DNA from: Taibaiella koreensis
Lineage (GTDB): Bacteria; Bacteroidota; Bacteroidia; Chitinophagales; Chitinophagaceae
Assembly: GCF_003545715.1 (NCBI RefSeq)
Contig: NZ_QVNU01000003.1
Coordinates: forward strand, 744,001-808,000
Length of the DNA stretch: 64,000 nt
Direction: 5' to 3'
Part shown: positions 9,084 to 61,681 of the stretch, piece by piece
How the letters are laid out: each line of letters starts with the position of its first letter
Position numbering within the stretch: position 1 is the stretch's first letter
The notes under the pieces: generated by a model
What the model was told of the DNA's origin: nothing
The model's input: the letters and a program-made list of their open reading frames with translations, nothing else
The model's database searches: none
Translations under genes and position numbers: made by a program

Positions 9084-9205
9084 TATCCGGATATAGGAAA
9101 CAGAGCCGGTCCTTGAGCTTGTCGAAAGGACAAGATGGTGCTTCGACGAGCTCAGCAACCGTTATGTAGAAGCAAATTGTATCCTGTTTCCTATATCCGG
9201 ATAGT
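9084..9205. repeat. Nested inverted-repeat element, copy A
   Basis: The outer arms TATCCGGATATAGGAAACAG (9084-9103) and its exact complement (9184-9203) enclose about 80 bases. Inside, TGAGCTTGTCGAA (9115-9127) faces TTCGACGAGCTCA (9142-9154), complementary at 12 of 13 positions. A second copy is at 30077-30212. No ORF lies within it; it looks like a small non-coding mobile or REP-like element. It lies between two genes, 29 bases from the 3' end of the TolB-like gene. Confidence 0.75.
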
Positions 9206-9233
9206 CACTAAAAGCTATAAGAAATGAGATATT

Positions 9234-10319
9234 TTAATCGACCCAATCGCAAATAAACAGGTTCGTATCATGTGTGCCGCCATTGTTGCGGTTGGAGCTA
9301 AAGATCAATTTCTTTCCATCGGGTGAGAACATGGGGAAGGCGTCGAAGCCATTATCCCTGGATATCTTTTCCAGGTGTTTGCCCTCAAGGTCGACAATAT
9401 AGATATTAAAGGGAAAGCCGCGTTTATGCTCGTGGTTGGACGAGAAAATAATATGCTGACCATCAGGCGTAAAATTGGGTGCCCAGTTGGCCTGACCCAG
9501 TTGCGTGATCTGCCGGGCATTGCTGCCGTCGGCATTGGCCACAAATATTTCCATATTCGTTGGCATCACCATACCCTGTTGCAACAGGTCTTTATAATCT
9601 TTCACTTCTGCTTCCGTTTGGGGGCGTGAAGCGCGCCATACGATCTTGCTGCCATCGGGGCTGAACCATGCGCCGCCGTCGTAGCCGAGCGTATTGGTGA
9701 TCTGCTTTACATGACTGCCGTCCAGGTCCATTACATACAAGTCCAGGTCGCCGTTGCGCATAGAGGTAAAGATGATCTTGTTGCCTTTGGGCGATATCAC
9801 GGCCTCGCCGTCATAGCCCGGCTCTTTGGTCAATTGCCTCAATATCTTGCCATTCAGGTCGGCGACAAAGATGTCGTAGCTTTCGTAGATCGGCCAGATG
9901 TATTTTTTGATAACGCTGCGATCGGGTACCGGCGGGCAATTGGGGCTGCCGAGATGGGTCGACGCATACAACACCTCTTTGCCATTAGGCATGATATACG
10001 CGCAGGTGGTGCGGCCTTTACCGGTGCTCACCATTTTATAGCTGAAGGCCTCTTTAGCGTTCTTCGGTACTTTGGCGTAAAAAATCTGGTCGCAGGAAAT
10101 CCCATCTTTTGGAGCCGTACGCTGAAAGGAGATCGCTTTGCCATCAAGGCTGAAATAAGCCTCTGCATTATCGCCGCCGAAGGTGAGCTGGCGGATATTT
10201 TTGAAGTGCTTTTCCCCTTCAAAGCTAAGGGAATCTTTAGTTGCGGTTTTGTCCTGGGCCTGTAGCAGCGTGGCGCCGCAGCAGGTCATACAGAGGAGCA
10301 AGGCCTTAGTACATCTCAT
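9234..10319 (-). CDS. Secreted TolB-like WD40/PD40 beta-propeller protein
   Basis: A 361-residue exported protein: signal peptide 1-21 (LLLCMTCCGATLLQAQ), then repeated PD40 units such as AYFSLDGKAISFQR, AVISPKGNKIIFTSMRNGDLDLYVMD, AWFSPDGSKIVWRASRP and PMFSPDGKKLIFSSNRN. These fold as a TolB-type propeller that often binds peptides or proteins in the periplasm. There is no peptidase domain after the propeller, so it is not a prolyl oligopeptidase. A TACCTTTG box lies 17 bases upstream. The partner or ligand is unknown. Confidence 0.82.
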   Translation of the reverse strand: MRCTKALLLCMTCCGATLLQAQDKTATKDSLSFEGEKHFKNIRQLTFGGDNAEAYFSLDGKAISFQRTAPKDGISCDQIFYAKVPKNAKEAFSYKMVSTGKGRTTCAYIMPNGKEVLYASTHLGSPNCPPVPDRSVIKKYIWPIYESYDIFVADLNGKILRQLTKEPGYDGEAVISPKGNKIIFTSMRNGDLDLYVMDLDGSHVKQITNTLGYDGGAWFSPDGSKIVWRASRPQTEAEVKDYKDLLQQGMVMPTNMEIFVANADGSNARQITQLGQANWAPNFTPDGQHIIFSSNHEHKRGFPFNIYIVDLEGKHLEKISRDNGFDAFPMFSPDGKKLIFSSNRNNGGTHDTNLFICDWVD

Positions 10320-10335
10320 GCAAAGAAAATTTCCG

Positions 10336-10343
10336 CAAAGGTA
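10336..10343 (-). promoter_or_regulatory. -7 box for the TolB-like gene
   Basis: CAAAGGTA on plus is TACCTTTG on minus; the predicted leader is about 12 bases. Confidence 0.5.
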
Positions 10344-10379
10344 AGCTCCTGGCGTGACCTGTATGCTTTCTACCGGAAA

Positions 10380-10411
10380 AAAGAAAGCGATACCGGTTGG
10401 TATCGCTTTTT
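10380..10411 (-). terminator. Terminator after the L,D-transpeptidase gene
   Basis: AAAGCGATACC (10384-10394) pairs with GGTATCGCTTT (10399-10409). On the minus strand it is followed by a T-rich run. Confidence 0.8.
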
Positions 10412-10439
10412 CCTTGTTCCCGATCAGATGACGGGGTGA

Positions 10440-11219
10440 TCAAAAAATGTATTTACCCTCCTGGTTATACATCACGGGAAGTATGGTATGGTTCTTTTCA
10501 AAATAATCGTAGCCTGCCTTCAGGTTGATCCAGAAGCGTTGGCGTGCCATATCGTCGCCATATTCACGGCCGAGGAAGTTGAGGCCGGTCTTGTTGAAGC
10601 GTACTGGAAATACATGCACCGGTATATTGGTCTCCCCGTTGAACCGTGCCGCCAGGCAAAGGGTATAGATCTCCTGTATGCCTTCGTCTTTCATAGGCAT
10701 GCAGCCCACGGTCACGCAGCCGCCATGAATATAAATGTCGCCGCCGGGTGTGGCTTTGTTACCCAGTATGAGATCCGAATAATTGGGATAGTTCAGCATC
10801 AGCGACAGGTAAAAGTCGCTTTTGGGATTGAAATCGGAAATAAAATAAAAGCCTTCGGGCACCTGACGGTCGCCTTCCCATCGCTTGGGCCCCAGAGAGC
10901 CGGACAGGGCACAGATCTTATATTGCTTGAACATCGTGAACGTATCGGCATCGGGATTACGTACCCATACTTCCATTTCGTTGTGTGCCTTAAAAGCCCT
11001 GATGTACATTTCCTTAGGAGGATAGGCCAGGTTCTTCTGCTGGAACTCCTTTTTCAGTACTTCGTTATACTGTGCGTAAGCCTTGGCCACACGAGGCGCG
11101 CTCAGCTGATAACTTTTAAATGTATTGACATCGGTTTGGGCCCTGAGGCGGAAAGAAATACAGGCAGCAAAGAGAAACACAACAGCACAATATCCTGCTC
11201 TTTTAATGGAGAAACGCAT
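10440..11219 (-). CDS. L,D-transpeptidase family protein (YafK/YkuD type)
   Basis: A 259-residue secreted YkuD-fold enzyme. A signal/membrane segment is at 9-27. The core has SGSLGPKRWEGDRQVPEGFY (106-125) and IYIHGGCVTVGCMPM (162-176), where H165 and C173 match the catalytic His and Cys of the YafK/DpaA subfamily. Enzymes of this family cleave or form links involving diaminopimelate in peptidoglycan; E. coli YafK/DpaA detaches Braun lipoprotein. Whether this one is a transpeptidase or an amidase-like enzyme cannot be told from sequence. A terminator follows. Confidence 0.85.
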   Translation of the reverse strand: MRFSIKRAGYCAVVFLFAACISFRLRAQTDVNTFKSYQLSAPRVAKAYAQYNEVLKKEFQQKNLAYPPKEMYIRAFKAHNEMEVWVRNPDADTFTMFKQYKICALSGSLGPKRWEGDRQVPEGFYFISDFNPKSDFYLSLMLNYPNYSDLILGNKATPGGDIYIHGGCVTVGCMPMKDEGIQEIYTLCLAARFNGETNIPVHVFPVRFNKTGLNFLGREYGDDMARQRFWINLKAGYDYFEKNHTILPVMYNQEGKYIF

Positions 11220-11371
11220 TATGGAATGAAAACAATTTTTGGGGTTCTTGACGAAAGGTAAAGATAAGATTAAATGAAAGTGAATGTGATAAACAGGTTT
11301 CCTTTTAACAGCCGTTTTAAAATTTTATTGTGCTCCGGGCCGCTATGTGTTAAAAAAAGCAATTTTTTACG

Positions 11372-12601
11372 TTAATAAAGCAGCCGCAGCTTTATGGTTC
11401 CTTTTACATTACGGAGCAAGGTTATGGCCTGCTGCGACAACTGCCGGTTTACATCCAGGACTACATAGCCGATACGATCATTCGTCTTGAGGTACTGCCC
11501 TTCTATATTCACTCCGTTATCGGCCAGCAGGGTATTGATCTCGCTCAACACGCCGGGAACATTGTTGTGGATATGCAGGATGCGGTGTGTGCCGTCCATG
11601 GGGGGCAGGCTGATGGGCGGGACGGTGTGCGAGCCGTAGGAGACGCCTTTTTCCAGGTACTGGAATAGCTTTTGGCCTACATCTTCGCCAATGTTCACCT
11701 GGGCTTCTTCCGTAGAACCGCCGATATGTGGCGTCAGGATCACATTGGGAAGCCCCTGCAATGGTGTTTGAAAAGGATCGCCGTTTTTCTCAGGCTCCAG
11801 GGGAAATACATCGGCAGCGGCCCCGCCGAGATGCCCGGATGCCAATGCTGCAGCCAGCGCTTCCAGATCCACAACCTCGCCGCGTGAGCAATTGATGAGC
11901 ATAGTACCTTTTTTGAACTGCTGCAGGTTGCCGGCATGGATCAGGTTGCGGGTATGCGCCGTGCCCGGTACATGCAGGCTTACGATATCGCTTTCGCTTA
12001 GTACTGCTTCCATGGTTGCGCAGGCCCGGGCATTACCCAAGGGCAGTTTAGTCTCCTGGTCATAATAAAGCACCTTCATACCCAGTGCCTCCGCGATCAC
12101 ACTTACCTGCGATCCAATGTTGCCATAACCGATAAGCCCCATGGTCTTACCCCGCAACTCGTGGCTGCCGCGGGCATCCTTAAGCCATATACCCTTATGA
12201 GCTGCCGTATGCTTATCGATCACACGGCGTAGCAGCATTACCGATAGTCCCAGCACCAGCTCGGCCACGCTGCGGGTATTGCTGTAGGGCGCATTGAACA
12301 CTGATACACCATGCCGGGCTGCAGCCTCCAGGTCCACCTGGTTGACCCCGATGCAAAAGCAGCCGATCGCCTGGAGCCTGGGCGCTGCCTGTAGTACCCG
12401 CTCTGAAATATGGGTCTTGGAGCGTATGCCCAGTAAGTGTACGTGCTTGATCGCTTCAATCAATTCGGCTTCGCCCAATGCTCCTGCCAGCTGCTGTACC
12501 TGGGTATAGCCGTTGTCCCGGAACAGCTGTACGGCTATAGGGCTGATGTTTTCCAGGAACAAGATGTTGATCTTATCCTTTGGATAGCTGGTGGCGCTCA
12601 T
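11372..12601 (-). CDS. serA: D-3-phosphoglycerate dehydrogenase
   Basis: SerA oxidises 3-phosphoglycerate to 3-phosphohydroxypyruvate, the first step of serine synthesis. The 409-residue protein is of the E. coli type: a substrate-binding domain, the NAD-binding motif GLIGYGNIG (155-163), catalytic Arg in INCSRGEVVD and His in PHIGGSTEEAQ, then a C-terminal ACT domain (about 330-409: ILHIHNNVPGVLSEIN, EGQYLKTND, VVLDVN), which in the family binds serine for feedback inhibition. It is divergent from dapF. I see no strong promoter box or terminator nearby. Confidence 0.95.
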   Translation of the reverse strand: MSATSYPKDKINILFLENISPIAVQLFRDNGYTQVQQLAGALGEAELIEAIKHVHLLGIRSKTHISERVLQAAPRLQAIGCFCIGVNQVDLEAAARHGVSVFNAPYSNTRSVAELVLGLSVMLLRRVIDKHTAAHKGIWLKDARGSHELRGKTMGLIGYGNIGSQVSVIAEALGMKVLYYDQETKLPLGNARACATMEAVLSESDIVSLHVPGTAHTRNLIHAGNLQQFKKGTMLINCSRGEVVDLEALAAALASGHLGGAAADVFPLEPEKNGDPFQTPLQGLPNVILTPHIGGSTEEAQVNIGEDVGQKLFQYLEKGVSYGSHTVPPISLPPMDGTHRILHIHNNVPGVLSEINTLLADNGVNIEGQYLKTNDRIGYVVLDVNRQLSQQAITLLRNVKGTIKLRLLY

Positions 12602-29791: not shown

Positions 29792-29953
29792 TCAGCAATC
29801 GTCGCAAATGCTGTTGGGTTTATGCGACAGGCAGGGAATATCGACTGTCAAGCCGCCACCTTTAACGTTTTGCTGCTGTGCCGCATCCAGGCAGCTCACT
29901 GTTTTCTTTTCCAGCCGGAGTTTCGGTGCAGGTATTAATTTTTTCTTTTTCAT
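29792..29953 (-). CDS. GG-leader RiPP precursor, class I lanthipeptide-like (precursor 1)
   Basis: A 53-residue peptide starting MKKKKLIPAPKLRLEKK. The leader has L12, L14, K16, V19 and L22 at the spacing of the LxLxK-type leaders of Bacteroidota lanthipeptide/RiPP precursors and ends in a double glycine at 32-33. The 20-residue core after GG is GLTVDIPCLSHKPNSICDDC, with three Cys (41, 50, 53) and Ser/Thr at 36, 43 and 48 as possible thioether partners. The ATG at 29953 is preferred over an in-frame start at 30028 because it gives the MKKKK start typical of these leaders. No LanB/LanC, radical SAM enzyme or transporter is in the window. A second precursor with an aligned leader is at 56514. 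Confidence 0.7.
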   Translation of the reverse strand: MKKKKLIPAPKLRLEKKTVSCLDAAQQQNVKGGGLTVDIPCLSHKPNSICDDC

Positions 29954-55669: not shown

Positions 55670-56461
55670 ATGCCTTCATTGACGATAAGCCTTATCCAGC
55701 GCTCGCTTCACTGGGAAGATAAGGACCGGAACCTGCAGCAATTCAGCGAAGTAATAGCGACACTGCCGCCGGCTGCCCAGGTGGCTGTACTGCCCGAAAT
55801 GTTCAGCACCGGCTTTAGTATGAAACCGGAAGTACTGGCCGAGACCATGGACGGCCCCACAGTATCCTGGATGCGGGCAACCGCCAGGCAATGCCGTAAG
55901 ATCCTTACCGGCAGTGTTATTATAGAAGAAGACGGCCATTACTACAACCGTTTGATCTGGATGTTGCCCAATGGCGCGCATTACCACTACGACAAACGGC
56001 ATCTCTTTGGCTATGCCGGTGAAGACAAACACTACGCCGCTGGCGATAAACGGTTGATCGTGCAGGTCAATGGCTGGAAGCTCTGCCTGCAGGTATGCTA
56101 CGATCTGCGTTTCCCGGTATGGGCACGGCAACAGCAAGCCACGGCGGGTATAGCAGAATATGATATCCTGGTATATGTGGCCAATTGGCCCCAACGTCGC
56201 AGTCATGCCTGGAAGACCTTATTGCAGGCCCGGGCGATAGAGAACCAATGCTATGTAATAGGCGTGAACCGTATAGGCGAAGACGGTAACGGGATCTACC
56301 ACAGCGGCGACAGCATGCTGGTCGATCCGCTGGGCAATGCGCTGTGGCAGCAAGCCGATGAGCCGGCCGTGTACACACACACCTTCGAGCCTGAAGCGCT
56401 GGCCGGAGCGCGGGATCATTTCCCTTTCCTTCACGATGCCGATCCCTTTCTGATCCGGTAA
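55670..56461 (+). CDS. Nitrilase-family amidase (omega-amidase/YafV-like)
   Basis: A 263-residue carbon-nitrogen hydrolase. The catalytic Glu-Lys-Cys triad is visible in LPEMFSTGF (about 41-49), YDKRHLFGYAGE (about 107-118) and LQVCYDLRFPVWAR (about 143-156). The YDKRHLF form and the start SLIQRSLHWEDKDRNLQQF fit the omega-amidase/YafV group, which hydrolyses 2-oxoglutaramate (methionine salvage repair). Cytosolic. A terminator follows. Confidence 0.9.
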   Translation: MPSLTISLIQRSLHWEDKDRNLQQFSEVIATLPPAAQVAVLPEMFSTGFSMKPEVLAETMDGPTVSWMRATARQCRKILTGSVIIEEDGHYYNRLIWMLPNGAHYHYDKRHLFGYAGEDKHYAAGDKRLIVQVNGWKLCLQVCYDLRFPVWARQQQATAGIAEYDILVYVANWPQRRSHAWKTLLQARAIENQCYVIGVNRIGEDGNGIYHSGDSMLVDPLGNALWQQADEPAVYTHTFEPEALAGARDHFPFLHDADPFLIR

Positions 56462-56465
56462 TAAA

Positions 56466-56498
56466 TTTTCCCGGGGCAAACTTTGCTCCCCGGGAAAA
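56466..56498. terminator. Terminator between the amidase and RiPP precursor 2
   Basis: TTTTCCCGGGG (56466-56476) pairs with CCCCGGGAAAA (56488-56498); it serves convergent transcripts. Confidence 0.85.
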
Positions 56499-56513
56499 CA
56501 TTTTTCATTCAGC

Positions 56514-56726
56514 TTAAGGACAGGTGAATATCGTCGGACATTGGATCTGTACGGTTGCGGCGCAGGACATACAACCGGCGGGATTCCCGGGCGGGACCAG
56601 TTGCGTCTGTCCCACGATCGTACGCCATTCGCCGCCTACAATCCGGGAAGCTTCCTTGCCGGCCAAGGCCAGGACGATGTCTTTGCTCAGCGACAGCCTT
56701 TGCAGGCCTACTCTTGTCTTTTTCAT
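56514..56726 (-). CDS. GG-leader RiPP precursor, class I lanthipeptide-like (precursor 2)
   Basis: A 70-residue peptide starting MKKTRVGLQRLSLSKDIVLA. The leader has L11, L13, K15, V18 and L21 and ends in GG at 31-32, matching precursor 1 position by position over 23 residues. The 38-residue core has four Cys (52, 55, 63, 69) and Thr/Ser at 36, 41, 54, 58, 65 and 68; its last part reads GCMSCAATVQIQCPTIFTCP. It lies between the amidase terminator and comEC. No modification or export gene is nearby. An overlapping frame (56509-56751) lacks these features and is rejected. Confidence 0.72.
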   Translation of the reverse strand: MKKTRVGLQRLSLSKDIVLALAGKEASRIVGGEWRTIVGQTQLVPPGNPAGCMSCAATVQIQCPTIFTCP

Positions 56727-56795
56727 AAAATTGATGTTTGGTGAAGCCCAAAGCTAAGCCCGCCTACTGAAAATAAATTGCAGCGGCGGCAATGC

Positions 56796-58868
56796 TCAGG
56801 GAAGTGGCGGATAGCTCCAGGCTCCATCTTCCTGTACCCAATGTACAGGCGCGCCTGCCGCGCTGAGCTTTGCTTTCCATTGCAAGGCCTTCCAGCGGGG
56901 CAAGCTCCCGTCGATAATGATCATGCGGGGATGAAAAGTATAATACCAGGCCTCCGGGTCAAAAGCGCAGTGTGACGATACCACGAGAAAATCGACGGGA
57001 AAACTGCTGCCTGGCACAATACCAGCGCAATGATCCAGGAACAGGATGCGTTTGCCACTGATATAACAGGTTTGCCCTTGTGTAGCTGCAACGGCCGTTG
57101 CTCTGAAGGCAAGGCGGGCAGGTAGCAGCGTGTATTGATCTGTCTTCCGGTCTGGTAAAGTATCGGGGAACACCGGCCGCACCTGTTTGCCAGTAAACAC
57201 ATCGGCCGCCGAGACCCGGGCTACGTTGTAGACAACCACCCGTTTTTGCTGCAGGGCTGCCTGGTCTTTGATCACAAGATCTGCTAAAAAAAGCAGGCTA
57301 CCGAGACCGCTTGCGAACAGATAAAGGCTGCGTTTGTACCATAGAAAAAGAATAAATCCGGTAACGGCAAGCATCAGTAGCCAATATTCAAATACATCGA
57401 TGTACAGCGCTTGCATGCGGCCAGGTGTGTGGGCAGCCAGAAAGCGGACTAGTGTATTGAAGCCGCTTGTGAGTGCGGTGAGTACGTCGCCCAGCCAGAT
57501 GCAGGGCAGGCCGGCGGCATACAGCAGGAAAAGAAGAGAGGAACCATAGAGCAACAGCATGCTGTATAATGCTGCGGGTAAATTGGCGATCAGGCCCATT
57601 AAGGGAAACTGGTGAAAGTAGTAGATCACCAGCGGCGCCACAAGCACCTGGGCTGCAATACTTATCGCCACAGCATCCCAGAGCCAGGCATCGATGCGGC
57701 GCCGGGGCCTGTACCAGCGCCGCACCGGAGCATAGAACAGCAATATGGAGAGCACAGCCAGAAAGGAGAGCTGGACACCAACATCATAAAGCCAGAAAGG
57801 ATTGTAGCAAAGCAGCAAAAAGCCTGTCGCAGCCCATATGTTTACCGGGGTACTGTTCCGGTGAAGCAGCAGGCCCGCCGTGCTGAGGCTGAACATGACC
57901 GCTGCGCGCACCGCGGATGGGGGAAATCCGGTAAGCGCCACATATAGCCATACGGCCAGTATGGCCAGCAGGTATTTGATGGTGTTGAGCCGGCGAAAGG
58001 GCAGGCAGCGGAACAAGAGCAGGATAAGGGCTCCGAGCAAAACAATATGCATGCCGGATATTGCAATAATATGTACGATGCCGGTTATGGAATAGGCTTG
58101 CCATAGCTGCTCGTCGAGTGCTGCCCGTTCATTGAGCACGGTGGCGGCGATGAGCGAGCGGGTAACGCTGTCTTTTACAGCCACGTCCAGGCAATGTTGC
58201 ATCGCCTGGCGTAAAGAAGCGAGGGCTGTCATGTTGCCTCTGGTATCCTGCAATAAGTGCATTTGCTCCACAGATAAGAATGCCTGATGAAACAAGCCCT
58301 GACGGGCCGCGTAATGGGCGTAATCAAAAGCGTTGGGATTGCCCGAGGCCTTTATCCGGTTGAGCTTTGCCGGGATCAGCCACACTTGCCCCGGCCGGTA
58401 AAAAGGCATGCCCTCCTTCTTGTAAATATAAAGCTGCAGCTGCCCTTCGGTCGAAAGCCAACGTCCCCGCTGCCTGATGTTGCTGACCGTAACCGGAAGG
58501 AATACGCTACGGGCTTTGGGCTTAGGAAAATCGTTGATGGTTACTACAAGCGCATCGGCGTCTTTCAGATAATGACCATACCAGCATTTGCTGCTCCTGA
58601 CATCCTGCAGGCTGCTCAGCGCAGCACCCAGGAATAGAAAAGCCATGGCGAGGCCGGTCAGCCGGAACAACGATGTATAGCGTTTCGTATTGTGTACAAG
58701 ATGCACGGCCAGCGAAAAGCTTCCGGAGAGCAGGGATAATAATAACCATAGTGCAGAAGGGACCCGGGGAAAGCAGGACCATAGCAGAATGCCGGCACAG
58801 AGGGTGGACAGCAGCCAGAGGAAAGGATAAGCCGGCAACAGTGCGGGGCGTCTTGAAATGCGTGTCAT
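56796..58868 (-). CDS. comEC: ComEC/Rec2 family DNA-uptake channel protein
   Basis: A 690-residue polytopic membrane protein. The N-terminal part (about 1-190) has three helices and a DUF4131-like OB region (GRWLSTEGQLQLYIYKKEGM, YRPGQVWLIPAKL, NPNAFDYAHYAARQGLFHQA). The competence domain (about 215-510) has VLNERAALDEQLWQAYSITG, IVHIIAISGMHIVLLGALIL and VALTGFPPSAVRAAVMFSLS. The C-terminal 150 residues resemble a metallo-beta-lactamase domain that has lost its HxHxDH metal site. In naturally competent bacteria ComEC moves single-stranded DNA across the inner membrane; whether this strain takes up DNA is unknown. Confidence 0.9.
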   Translation of the reverse strand: MTRISRRPALLPAYPFLWLLSTLCAGILLWSCFPRVPSALWLLLSLLSGSFSLAVHLVHNTKRYTSLFRLTGLAMAFLFLGAALSSLQDVRSSKCWYGHYLKDADALVVTINDFPKPKARSVFLPVTVSNIRQRGRWLSTEGQLQLYIYKKEGMPFYRPGQVWLIPAKLNRIKASGNPNAFDYAHYAARQGLFHQAFLSVEQMHLLQDTRGNMTALASLRQAMQHCLDVAVKDSVTRSLIAATVLNERAALDEQLWQAYSITGIVHIIAISGMHIVLLGALILLLFRCLPFRRLNTIKYLLAILAVWLYVALTGFPPSAVRAAVMFSLSTAGLLLHRNSTPVNIWAATGFLLLCYNPFWLYDVGVQLSFLAVLSILLFYAPVRRWYRPRRRIDAWLWDAVAISIAAQVLVAPLVIYYFHQFPLMGLIANLPAALYSMLLLYGSSLLFLLYAAGLPCIWLGDVLTALTSGFNTLVRFLAAHTPGRMQALYIDVFEYWLLMLAVTGFILFLWYKRSLYLFASGLGSLLFLADLVIKDQAALQQKRVVVYNVARVSAADVFTGKQVRPVFPDTLPDRKTDQYTLLPARLAFRATAVAATQGQTCYISGKRILFLDHCAGIVPGSSFPVDFLVVSSHCAFDPEAWYYTFHPRMIIIDGSLPRWKALQWKAKLSAAGAPVHWVQEDGAWSYPPLP

Positions 58869-58987: not shown

Positions 58988-60919
58988 CTATACCTTTCCG
59001 GAAGGCAGATAGGGAATATCCATGATCACCAGGATACCTTTGCCCTTCCCTTCCGTCGTTTTGTCGATAATGCGGAGATCGGCTTTTTTACCGGTATTCT
59101 TGCTAAGCAGCTCCAGTCGCTCCCTGGTAATATATGTGGAAAGAGACTGCTTGCCCGAACTGGCCGTTTTGGGTTGCATGCCGTTGCCATTGTCTTCGAT
59201 GGTGCAGCGCAATGTGCCATCGATGCGATCAATGGTAACATCGATGTGCCCTTTGTCAGACAGGTTTTGAATGCCATGCTGTATCGCATTTTCCACAAAG
59301 GGCTGGATCAGCATAGGCGGGATAAGGATATCGTCCTCGTCATAGCCTTCATAAAGGCCGATGTGATAGTCGAATAGGTTTTCGAAACGCATGTATTGCA
59401 GGCTCAGGTAGTTTTTTAGGCCATCTACTTCTTTTTGCAGCGACACAAAGGATTCTCTTGAGTTTTCAAGGCTTACGCGTAGCAGACGGGCAAACTGATT
59501 GAGGTACCGGATCGACTTGTCTTTTTCATCATTGCGTATAAAGCCCTGCAGGGAAGACAGTGTATTAAAGATGAAATGCGGGTCCATCTGGCTGCGCAGC
59601 AGGCGTTGCTCCAGCTCCATGCTCTCATTGGCGGCCTGCAATTTTCGCTGCCGGATAAAGGCATAGGCAAGCAGTACAGATACGATGAGGGAAAATCCGA
59701 AAGCAAAGATCAGGATCCGTTGCTGTTTGAGAATGGTGGCCTGCGATTCATTTTTAAGTGTCAGCTCCTGTGCGCGGTGCTGTTGCTGTTTCAGGGAATA
59801 GTTGAGATCGAGCGCAGCCAGCTCTTCCCGCTTCTGCATCGCCGATAATTGTTCGCTGGAATTAAAGGTCATGATCAGGTAGGTAAAAGCCGAATCGTAG
59901 TCCTGCAGCGCACGGTGTATTTTGGCCAGCTCTTCATACGTACGGAATTTGGCTTCTTCATCGTTCTTTTGCTCTGCGATCGCCTGTGCTTCCCGGGCAT
60001 ATTTTAGCGCGCCGGCATAGTCCCTTTCGTCGAAGCGGGAATAGGACATGTTGAGGTATTCCTGCGGCAGGTCGGCCGTCTGGAGTTTCTTCTTCAGCTC
60101 AAAAGCCTGGTTCTGTAAGGCATATCCTTTTTCCCGGTTGCCCATGCGGATGTACAGCACGCCCTGGGCTGCTATGCTTATGGCCATCATCTGCTGGTCG
60201 CCGGCTTTTTTTGCCAGGGCATAAGCACTGTCCTCATAAAGTAAGGCTTTCCTGAAATCCTTTTGTGCGCCGGCAATGCGCGACTGTTGCGACATAAACT
60301 GCCCACGGACGCTATAGTCGCCTGTATCGGCAAAGGTCTGTTGGGAAATCTCGAGGAACTGTTCGGCCCGGTTGGGATCGTCGGCGCGGAACGATACTTC
60401 AGCAGCCAGGTTATAGGTCCACCAGCGGTAACGGGACTGATACCCCGGCCTTTCGTTAAGCTGCATAATAGGGACCAGCAAGGCAAAAGTGCCTGCACCT
60501 ACGCTGCTGTCCATCTGTAGCCGTACGAGCGCCGATTGCTTCAGGGTGATCAGGTCGTAGTCCCGTGCCGTATCCACGCGGGCATAATGCAGCATGCGGT
60601 TGAACAGCTGTGCGGCGGCCGCTTTCTTCCCTTTTTTATAAGCCTTGTACCCTTGCAGGAATTGCCGGTAGCCGATGATACGGTAGTCGTCCCGGAACCG
60701 GGCGGGCATCGTGCTGTCGAGCCGGTCGAGGAAGGCAGCGCTGTTATGGGAAAGGGCCGAATCTACATAAGCACGGTACAATTGCTCTTCCTCCGACACG
60801 GAAAGATCGGGAAGCTTATGAGTATCGTCTTTTTCCCCCGTGCAGGCTGGTAACAGGAATAAGCTGAAAAGCAGTAAAATCCCGGAAGCGCAATAGGATG
60901 GGAAAGGTTTTTTCTTCAT
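58988..60919 (-). CDS. Sensor histidine kinase, LytS/YehU type, with TPR sensor
   Basis: A 643-residue kinase. The N-terminus has a lipobox-like end (FLLPAC, C26), then TPR-like helical repeats (about 40-370) that should face the periplasm, one membrane helix (401-423) and a cytosolic His_kinase domain: QMDPHFIFNTL with H448, and the ATPase N-box PPMLIQPFVENAIQHG, then EDNGNGM. This architecture is typical of Bacteroidota LytTR systems. It starts 12 bases after the response regulator gene. Confidence 0.92.
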   Translation of the reverse strand: MKKKPFPSYCASGILLLFSLFLLPACTGEKDDTHKLPDLSVSEEEQLYRAYVDSALSHNSAAFLDRLDSTMPARFRDDYRIIGYRQFLQGYKAYKKGKKAAAAQLFNRMLHYARVDTARDYDLITLKQSALVRLQMDSSVGAGTFALLVPIMQLNERPGYQSRYRWWTYNLAAEVSFRADDPNRAEQFLEISQQTFADTGDYSVRGQFMSQQSRIAGAQKDFRKALLYEDSAYALAKKAGDQQMMAISIAAQGVLYIRMGNREKGYALQNQAFELKKKLQTADLPQEYLNMSYSRFDERDYAGALKYAREAQAIAEQKNDEEAKFRTYEELAKIHRALQDYDSAFTYLIMTFNSSEQLSAMQKREELAALDLNYSLKQQQHRAQELTLKNESQATILKQQRILIFAFGFSLIVSVLLAYAFIRQRKLQAANESMELEQRLLRSQMDPHFIFNTLSSLQGFIRNDEKDKSIRYLNQFARLLRVSLENSRESFVSLQKEVDGLKNYLSLQYMRFENLFDYHIGLYEGYDEDDILIPPMLIQPFVENAIQHGIQNLSDKGHIDVTIDRIDGTLRCTIEDNGNGMQPKTASSGKQSLSTYITRERLELLSKNTGKKADLRIIDKTTEGKGKGILVIMDIPYLPSGKV

Positions 60920-60931
60920 GACAGCGTAAAT

Positions 60932-61681
60932 TTAGCTACCAGTCAGGAAAGAAATAACATGCTCTTTCTTCCGGGTGGAAACCGGTATCTCCTGGCCGCC
61001 CTTCAGGATCAGGTAGCCTTCTTTATGAAAACGGTCGATGAAGCTGACATTGACAAGGTAAGATTGATGCGGACGCAGGAACAGCTGCCGCGGCAACAGT
61101 TCGTCGTACTCCTTGATCGACTTGCTGACGACGATCTTACGTTTGTCGATCAGGTGGAAATGGGTATAGCCGCCATCATTCTGACAATAAACGATCTCAT
61201 CAAAGGCGACTACCTGCAGAAAATACTGGGAACGCAAAACGATGCGGCTTCGGTTAGCCATGTTCTCGCTATTGCCCAGGTGTGCGCGCGCCACTTCGAG
61301 GCTTTCCTTTACGTCACGGGCTTCCTGCCGGCTGGCTTTCACCTTTTCCAGCGCTTCTTTAAGCTCGGGCTCATCAATTGGCTTGAGCAGGTAGTCCAGG
61401 GCGCCGTACTTGATGGCTTTGATCGCGTATTCGTTGAAGGCCGTAATGAATACCGTATGAAAGCTGATCTTTTCAAGCGACTGCAACAGGTCGAAGCCGG
61501 TGCCATCGCTCAGTTGGATATCCAGGAGCAGCAGGTCGGGCTGGGTTGCATTGATCAGTATTTTGGCCTCGACTACCGAGCCGCAGGTCCCCACCACGAT
61601 GAAGTCCGTGTATGGTTTCAGCAACGATTCCAGGTCTTTCCTGATGATCGGCTCGTCGTCTACAATCAATACACGCAGCAT
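60932..61681 (-). CDS. LytTR-family response regulator
   Basis: A 249-residue regulator with an N-terminal receiver domain (LIVDDEPIIRKDLESLLKPY; phospho-acceptor D54 in LLLLDIQLSDG; T/K residues in VFITAFNEYAIKAIKYGALD, YLLKPIDEPEL) and a C-terminal LytTR DNA-binding domain (about 145-249: IVLRSQYFLQVVAFDEIVYC, FLRPHQSYLVNVSFIDRFHK). It is the first gene of the two-component operon, with a TATATTTG box about 22 bases upstream. Confidence 0.95.
   Translation of the reverse strand: MLRVLIVDDEPIIRKDLESLLKPYTDFIVVGTCGSVVEAKILINATQPDLLLLDIQLSDGTGFDLLQSLEKISFHTVFITAFNEYAIKAIKYGALDYLLKPIDEPELKEALEKVKASRQEARDVKESLEVARAHLGNSENMANRSRIVLRSQYFLQVVAFDEIVYCQNDGGYTHFHLIDKRKIVVSKSIKEYDELLPRQLFLRPHQSYLVNVSFIDRFHKEGYLILKGGQEIPVSTRKKEHVISFLTGS

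Follow-up and report, generated by a model that had tools for sequence, protein, structure and literature searches.

A short Taibaiella koreensis gene as a probable member of a genome-wide set of dispersed class I lanthipeptide precursors

Two short open reading frames (ORFs) of Taibaiella koreensis, both within the 64,000-nucleotide stretch of contig C17 analysed here (the window), encode peptides that begin alike and end differently. Each has a leader that closes with GG, followed by a core with several Cys. Are these scattered precursors of one maturation system acting in trans, as a sequence-only reading of the window had proposed? Or is the second of them, precursor 2, a chance likeness at an unremarkable site? 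From its leader, its upstream region and its place among the other peptides of the genome, precursor 2 is very probably one of about 140 dispersed, single-gene class I lanthipeptide precursors of Taibaiella that share enzymes encoded elsewhere.

Scattered lanthipeptide precursors have been described in marine picocyanobacteria. According to the available portions of PMC10783134 and PMC7268733, prochlorosin precursors are spread over the genome, have similar leaders with a GG end and dissimilar cores, and are modified by one promiscuous synthetase. The number given is 29 in the accessible part of PMC12328550, and up to 79 SyncA precursors in one strain in that of PMC9872173. For the Bacteroidetes, the available text of PMC7268733 describes class I LanA precursors with LxLxKx5L and GG in the leader, often with a C39 protease in the cluster, in a survey that searched within seven genes of a LanC protein. 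The same portion lists the pinensins as class I lanthipeptides of Bacteroidetes and their LanB as split.

Table 1. Features at the two window precursors and at related loci (positions refer to the window unless another stretch is named)
Feature	Position	Strand	Remarks
Precursor 2 ORF, 70 aa, ATG start	56514-56726	-	Class I lanthipeptide-type; stop codon 56514-56516
Leader of precursor 2, residues 1-32	56631-56726	-	LxLxKx5L, GG end; sequence reading and profile match
Core of precursor 2, 38 aa	56517-56630	-	4 Cys, Ser/Thr; sequence reading
21-bp palindromic operator	56765-56785	-	CGCTGCAATTTATTTTCAGTA on coding strand; 59 to 39 nt before precursor 2 ATG
-7 box-like element TAGCTTTG	56749-56756	-	Fits TAnnTTTG; 8 nt after operator
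Hairpin, 12 pairs	56465-56499	strandless	A and T runs at flanks; fold
Carbon-nitrogen hydrolase gene, flank of precursor 2	55670-56461	+	PF00795; same neighbour in relatives
ComEC-type competence protein gene, flank of precursor 2	56796-58868	-	PF03772
Precursor 1, 53 aa	29792-29953	-	ATG inside longer GTG-started ORF; T. helva ortholog at same site
Leader of precursor 1, residues 1-33	29855-29953	-	NF038153, 37.4 bits (cut-off 22)
Second 5' element, examples	~1707-1768 of stretch L064; also L205, L207, L209		
Operator and microviridin-type precursor	2032-2050 and 2093-2305 of own C10:268231 stretch		

The likeness between the two leaders is as first described: residues 10-32 of precursor 2 align without a gap to residues 11-33 of precursor 1, with 7 identities in 23 positions (L, L, K, V, L, G, G), and the cores measure 38 residues with four Cys against 20 with three. 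Taken alone, this pairwise match is only modest. Seven identities to the precursor 1 leader are reached anywhere by two of the 221 other window ORFs (ATG ORFs of 40-120 aa), precursor 2 and one other, and near the N-terminus by precursor 2 only. The N-terminal arrangement of LxLxKx5L followed by GG occurs in just the two precursors among 222 window ORFs.

A profile made from the leaders of the same genome says more about precursor 2 than precursor 1 does. It was built from 114 of 128 leaders; precursor 2 was excluded, as were 13 further leaders that were mostly short, without a clear GG or of odd spacing. Precursor 2 scores 31.5 bits against it (genome-wide E 2.1e-6) with all 33 positions matched, and in a test in which the real peptide scores 30.8 bits, the best of its residue-shuffled versions scores 7.0 (5000 made, 3618 reported). 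Its combination of leader and Ser/Thr- and Cys-containing core is that of a class I precursor. Precursor 1 belongs to the curated family NF038153 (model L1a). Precursor 2 is unlisted there at E up to 10 (cut-off 22 bits), and its 15.9 bits (E 0.011) against NF038158 (model L1b, cut-off 27 bits) place it outside that family also, which counts against its assignment. No Nif11 family is listed for either window precursor in the libraries searched, which we take to include the Nif11 models.

How many such peptides does the genome encode? The suggestion that more scattered precursors might exist was borne out, with 140 precursor ORFs catalogued, one of them truncated. At E up to 10, L1a marks 129 places genome-wide, of which 93 exceed its cut-off, and L1b marks 20. 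Inspection of 131 places gave 128 short ORFs (50-109 aa), one ORF shortened by a stop and two places inside larger, unrelated ORFs. The 114-leader profile has 141 matches at E up to 10, and its new places bring the catalogue to 140 including the truncated ORF; the first look with this profile scored 150 of 176 candidates, and the family size may be a lower bound. Members share one build, an MKK start, an LxLxK leader, GG and a core rich in Cys, Thr and Ser. The strict LxLxKx5L motif is present in 107 of 128 leaders and a relaxed form in all 128. Median core values for these ORFs are 46 aa, 6 Cys and 9 Ser+Thr; Cys makes up 13.6% of core residues and Thr 12.2%. Isolated precursors, with no other within 2 kb, number 73 of 129, and the remainder stand in groups of two to five precursors. 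Throughout the set the leaders belong to a single family, the cores abound in Cys, Ser and Thr, and the enzymes are encoded elsewhere.

The truncated member (contig C16, 155127-155225) has a stop codon within its leader, the sole such case among the 140. Spread as a mobile cassette with shared ends was considered and rejected: the dispersed paralog pairs compared show no shared flanking repeat. DNA similarity within such pairs covers the ORF or part of it, extends once to about 150 nt upstream, or is undetected.

The region 5' of precursor 2 contains a palindrome of the form cACTGCA-N7-TGCAGTg, the sole site of at least 13 bits in the window. With a matrix trained on the same upstream regions, an operator of at least 16 bits stands before 36 of the 140 precursors, precursor 2 included, and begins 55-67 nt before the ATG in 32 of the 36. 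Markov-shuffled upstream regions yield 0 to 2 on average over the several thresholds used, and downstream regions yield 4 of 128, some of which may reach the promoter of the next precursor. Within 518,344 bases of the genome, sampled as stretches around precursors and Lan genes, there are 45 sites of at least 13 bits. Of these, 37 are no more than 200 nt upstream from the start of a precursor, a further one (26.3 bits) precedes the LanC gene on contig C19, and seven occur elsewhere at no more than 15.9 bits. The T. helva ortholog of this LanC (91.7% identical) has the operator too, at 21.9 bits.

In two species taken together, 47 of 53 operator sites have TTTG or TTTA 12 nt after the palindrome. 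This fits a Bacteroidetes -7 box, for which we take the consensus to be TAnnTTTG and on which the element at precursor 2 was assigned, with the palindrome over the -33 region. Given the fixed spacing between palindrome and box, the bound factor would be an activator. A scan for sigma-70 consensus promoters found nothing at precursor 2. A sensor kinase and a LytTR response regulator are encoded at 58988-61681 of the window, on the same strand as and upstream of comEC and precursor 2. In our reading, similar regulators seem to occur near some Lan genes, and for that reason a regulator of this type is a candidate for the operator-binding factor.

The operator marks part of the set. It is missing before 104 of the 140 precursors, precursor 1 included, before both LanB genes and three of the four LanC genes (400 nt scanned), and before all T. 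chishuiensis precursors sampled (0 of 21), and these absences count against our reading. The T. helva count is 17 of 55 precursors, a rate inflated by 11 loci picked with the operator listing; without the operator-guided loci it is 6 of 43. Among ortholog pairs between the two species, 12 have the operator in both members, 25 in neither and 6 in one (Fisher p 8e-6); without the operator-guided loci the counts are 5, 25 and 4 (p 4.5e-4). A degenerate version of the pattern occurs 47 times in the own genome, 41 in T. helva, 20 in T. chishuiensis and 14 in a genome of the genus that has no precursors, as against 1, 1, 0 and 0 for the reversed pattern; the 14 sites in the precursor-free genome reveal a real background. 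For 14 listed of the 47 own sites, eight are before precursors, one is before a microviridin-type precursor and five are elsewhere. Six T. helva pattern stretches picked by eye comprised five with lanthipeptide precursors and a sixth with the ortholog of the microviridin-type gene.

Microviridins and marinostatins are a class of RiPPs other than lanthipeptides and depend on ATP-grasp chemistry. An orphan member of this family shares the lanthipeptide operator in two species (own C10:268231 and T. helva C27:521444), with 48 and 47.6 bits against NF033738 (cut-off 26). Beside the C10 gene we recognise an esterase-like ORF and a UvrD-like helicase ORF, and no ATP-grasp gene was recognised within 2 kb.

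A different 5' element stands before 22 precursors (9 own, 7 T. helva, 6 T. chishuiensis), neither window precursor among them. It reads CGCTGAA..CCCC..GGCG..AAGACAGGGG, with GAA and AGACA constant, and ends some 20-30 nt before the ATG. Its CGC/GGCG and CCCC/GGGG pairings cross in the manner of an H-type pseudoknot. Across 18 distinct sequences, stem 2 shows covariation, keeping 105 of 126 pairs where shuffles keep 90.0 on average (p 2e-4), and the nearly invariant stem 1 keeps 45 of 50 against 43.0 (p 0.13). No Rfam family was found over its gathering score at 14 loci, 11 of them bearing the element; two weak Rfam matches on one element look like chance and were set aside. This element is possibly an undescribed regulatory RNA.

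Where, then, are the enzymes? The window's contig has no LanB or LanC match, and precursor 2 therefore lacks the clustering with enzyme genes expected of class I. Two LanB proteins (PF04738) are encoded in the genome, on C16 (1074 aa) and C20 (922 aa), and both also have a C-terminal PF14028, so that the glutamylation and elimination domains of class I are present. The C16 protein is full length (PF04738 463 bits, PF14028 209 bits). Next to it are genes for a 731-aa C39 peptidase-ABC exporter, with C39, membrane and ATPase domains, and for an HlyD-type protein. Four LanC proteins (PF05147; 402-444 aa, below LanM size) are encoded on C18, C10, C19 and C2, contigs other than those of the LanB genes. 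All four contain WCYG and CHG, which we take to be the LanC zinc-ligand motifs, as in class I enzymes. In T. chishuiensis a LanC lies between LanB and the exporter, and the separation of LanB from LanC in the own genome may thus be secondary. The C20 LanB (9203-11971 of its stretch) is diverged, with 36% identity to one T. chishuiensis protein. It adjoins what we read as a sensor and response regulator pair; its contig has no LanC match, and the 20-kb stretch around it contains no catalogued precursor.

The proposal of a single trans-acting maturation system with scattered precursors is supported by the 140 precursors, by enzymes on other contigs and by the co-occurrence of LanB and leaders described below. 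Since two LanB and four LanC are present, one shared machine is not proven. Could each LanC, and the C20 LanB, instead serve a distinct subset of precursors? The divergence of the four LanC and of the two LanB within one genome speaks for such separate systems, as do the presence of at least one precursor close to each LanC and the two different regulatory elements on different precursors. The C16 LanB is 89% identical to one T. helva LanB and 56% to one T. chishuiensis LanB; the other T. helva LanB is 30% identical to it. Thus only one LanB is a close T. helva ortholog, yet 43 precursors are common to the two species, which argues against separate systems. This division of labour is a live possibility that we nevertheless find somewhat doubtful. 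We favour one LanB for the whole set, on the grounds that the leaders form a shared family and that the C16 LanB alone has a close ortholog in T. helva.

The 43 common precursors also bear on the function of the cores. They are those of the 55 catalogued T. helva precursors with a reciprocal best core in the own genome; the T. helva catalogue, ORFs from chosen loci as against 73 profile matches, leans to high leader scores. A flanking ORF is conserved in 40 of the 43 pairs. Cores have a median identity of 0.79 and leaders one of 0.71, and the core is the more similar part in 28 of 43 pairs (Wilcoxon p 0.048), in a comparison biased towards cores because the pairs were chosen by core similarity. 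Pooled dN/dS for the 39 pairs with core identity of at least 0.5 is 0.079 in cores and 0.145 in leaders, rough ratios since dS is near saturation. Even so, conservation of this kind marks the genes as translated and their cores as maintained. A large part of the repertoire, together with some of its promoter signals, is conserved in this second species. Precursor 1 has a T. helva partner with 90% core and 58% leader identity; precursor 2 has none. We reject chance ORFs as the source of the set on the strength of the leader profile, the dN/dS ratios and the operator.

Prochlorosins have been viewed as a rapidly diversifying library in which single peptides have no fixed role. The Taibaiella set could be seen likewise: its leaders are alike throughout, while cores within the genome are clearly alike in about a dozen paralog pairs. 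Against this stand the orthologous cores, conserved beyond their leaders and with the low dN/dS given above, even if the choice of pairs by core favours that result. We consider a library of this kind unlikely.

The four Taibaiella genomes compared have 138, 73, 73 and 0 leader profile matches at E up to 0.01, and 2, 2, 3 and 0 LanB proteins. The fourth, with neither profile match (E up to 0.01) nor LanB match, is a natural negative control. Its lack of both also hints that the whole system has been gained or lost as a unit. In 195 genomes of the family, with at most 38 candidates scored per genome, L1a matches 15 at E up to 0.01 and passes its cut-off in 11; outside the genus there are at most seven matches per genome among those listed. 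Co-occurrence with the enzymes, which the sequence-only reading had proposed as a check, holds in this sample: LanB is present in 10 of the 11 genomes with a leader over the cut-off and in 14 of the 184 others. At least nine of 395 genomes of the phylum match (at most 19 candidates scored per genome). Among the matches listed for the richest of these other genomes (19 of 55 candidates scored), all fall in one 3.3-kb stretch, and scatter like that of the own genome is not seen.

These counts weigh on a further alternative, that the peptides are exported with GG leaders and remain unmodified or disulfide-bonded while LanB and LanC serve a few. The cores are unusually rich in Cys, a C39 exporter alone could process GG leaders, and few precursors are close to LanB or LanC. 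However, one profile matches the leaders of scattered and Lan-adjacent precursors alike, LanB presence tracks leader presence in the family sample, and the operator of the precursors is also found before a LanC. In addition, LxLxKx5L is the motif of Bacteroidetes class I LanA in the available text of PMC7268733. We judge this alternative quite improbable.

What, finally, of the site of precursor 2 itself? The sequence-only reading named, as a finding that would refute it, relatives that keep the flanking genes and lack the ORFs. Taken literally, this is the case for precursor 2: the ComEC match is present in 4/4 Taibaiella genomes and the junction with the hydrolase is kept in all four, but the ORF is absent there in 3/3 relatives, which counts against our reading. 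It is not so for precursor 1. The gap between the hydrolase and ComEC genes is 334 bp in the own genome versus 29, 6 and 123 bp in the three relatives. Because no close core relative of precursor 2 was found among the catalogued peptides and its site is empty in three relatives, there is no comparison that could show selection on its core. Neither the profile match nor the operator is affected by this absence, and we accordingly read the latter as the gain or loss of a single gene; precursor 2 looks like a species-specific addition to the set. The hairpin past its stop codon folds at -20.1 kcal/mol (z -2.05, equalled by 8 of 200 shuffles) and is a probable two-way terminator by folding, although a terminator consensus scan found nothing at precursor 2. 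We consider it very unlikely that precursor 2 is a defunct remnant or an ORF whose start resembles a leader by chance. Its empty site in relatives, its scores below the curated cut-offs and its solitary core might suggest this, but it has an intact ORF with a full-length profile match, an operator where one is normally found and at the normal distance from the -7 box, and that hairpin.

LanB proteins that recognise a leader, LanC proteins that close rings and C39 peptidases that cut at GG are established biology of class I lanthipeptides and C39 exporters. On this model, the C16 LanB would read the common leader in trans and dehydrate Ser and Thr of the core, one of the four LanC would close the thioether rings, and the C39 exporter would cut after GG during export. 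A dedicated transcription factor may bind the palindrome beside the -7 box and so switch on about a quarter of the precursors, precursor 2 among them, together with one LanC. A wider reading is offered tentatively, with confidence a little short of even: a genome-wide RiPP regulon in which a single class I LanB, the C39 exporter and a few LanC would mature more than 130 dispersed lanthipeptides with cores under strong purifying selection, an activator-type operator would join precursors, a LanC and the microviridin-type precursor, and a subset would be under an undescribed 5' UTR pseudoknot.

We read the whole as a class I system with a prochlorosin-like layout, with lanthionine predicted in its products. 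It resembles the prochlorosins and SyncA in scattered precursors, similar leaders, GG and dissimilar cores. Unlike prochlorosins, which have class II LanM enzymes and Nif11 leaders, Taibaiella has class I LanB, separate LanC and LxLxKx5L leaders, about 140 precursors, and cores conserved between two species. Leader motif, GG and C39 protease are shared with the Bacteroidetes class I LanA of NF038153 and NF038158 as far as the available survey text describes them, whereas most Taibaiella precursors are far from Lan genes and that survey stayed within seven genes of LanC. The pinensins are likewise class I lanthipeptides of Bacteroidetes; the available text gives their LanB as split, and the Taibaiella LanB is full length. 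They come from Chitinophaga, and their precursors are clustered whereas those of Taibaiella are scattered. Searches for Taibaiella with lanthipeptide found no literature, and those on class I lanthipeptides with Bacteroidetes, Chitinophagaceae and Pedobacter turned up no description of such a set in titles and abstract openings. In our reading the set is larger than the published sets in the literature searched, and the published scattered sets, as far as the available texts go, are all class II.

The system would be to class I what the prochlorosins are to class II and, within the literature searched, the largest lanthipeptide precursor set in one genome. Genome mining based on clusters would overlook the greater part of it, because most precursors are far from LanB and LanC. 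Since individual cores are conserved from one species to another, a new organism is at hand in which to test why a cell keeps dozens of different lanthipeptides. If one LanB does accept more than a hundred natural cores, it would be a useful tool for peptide engineering.
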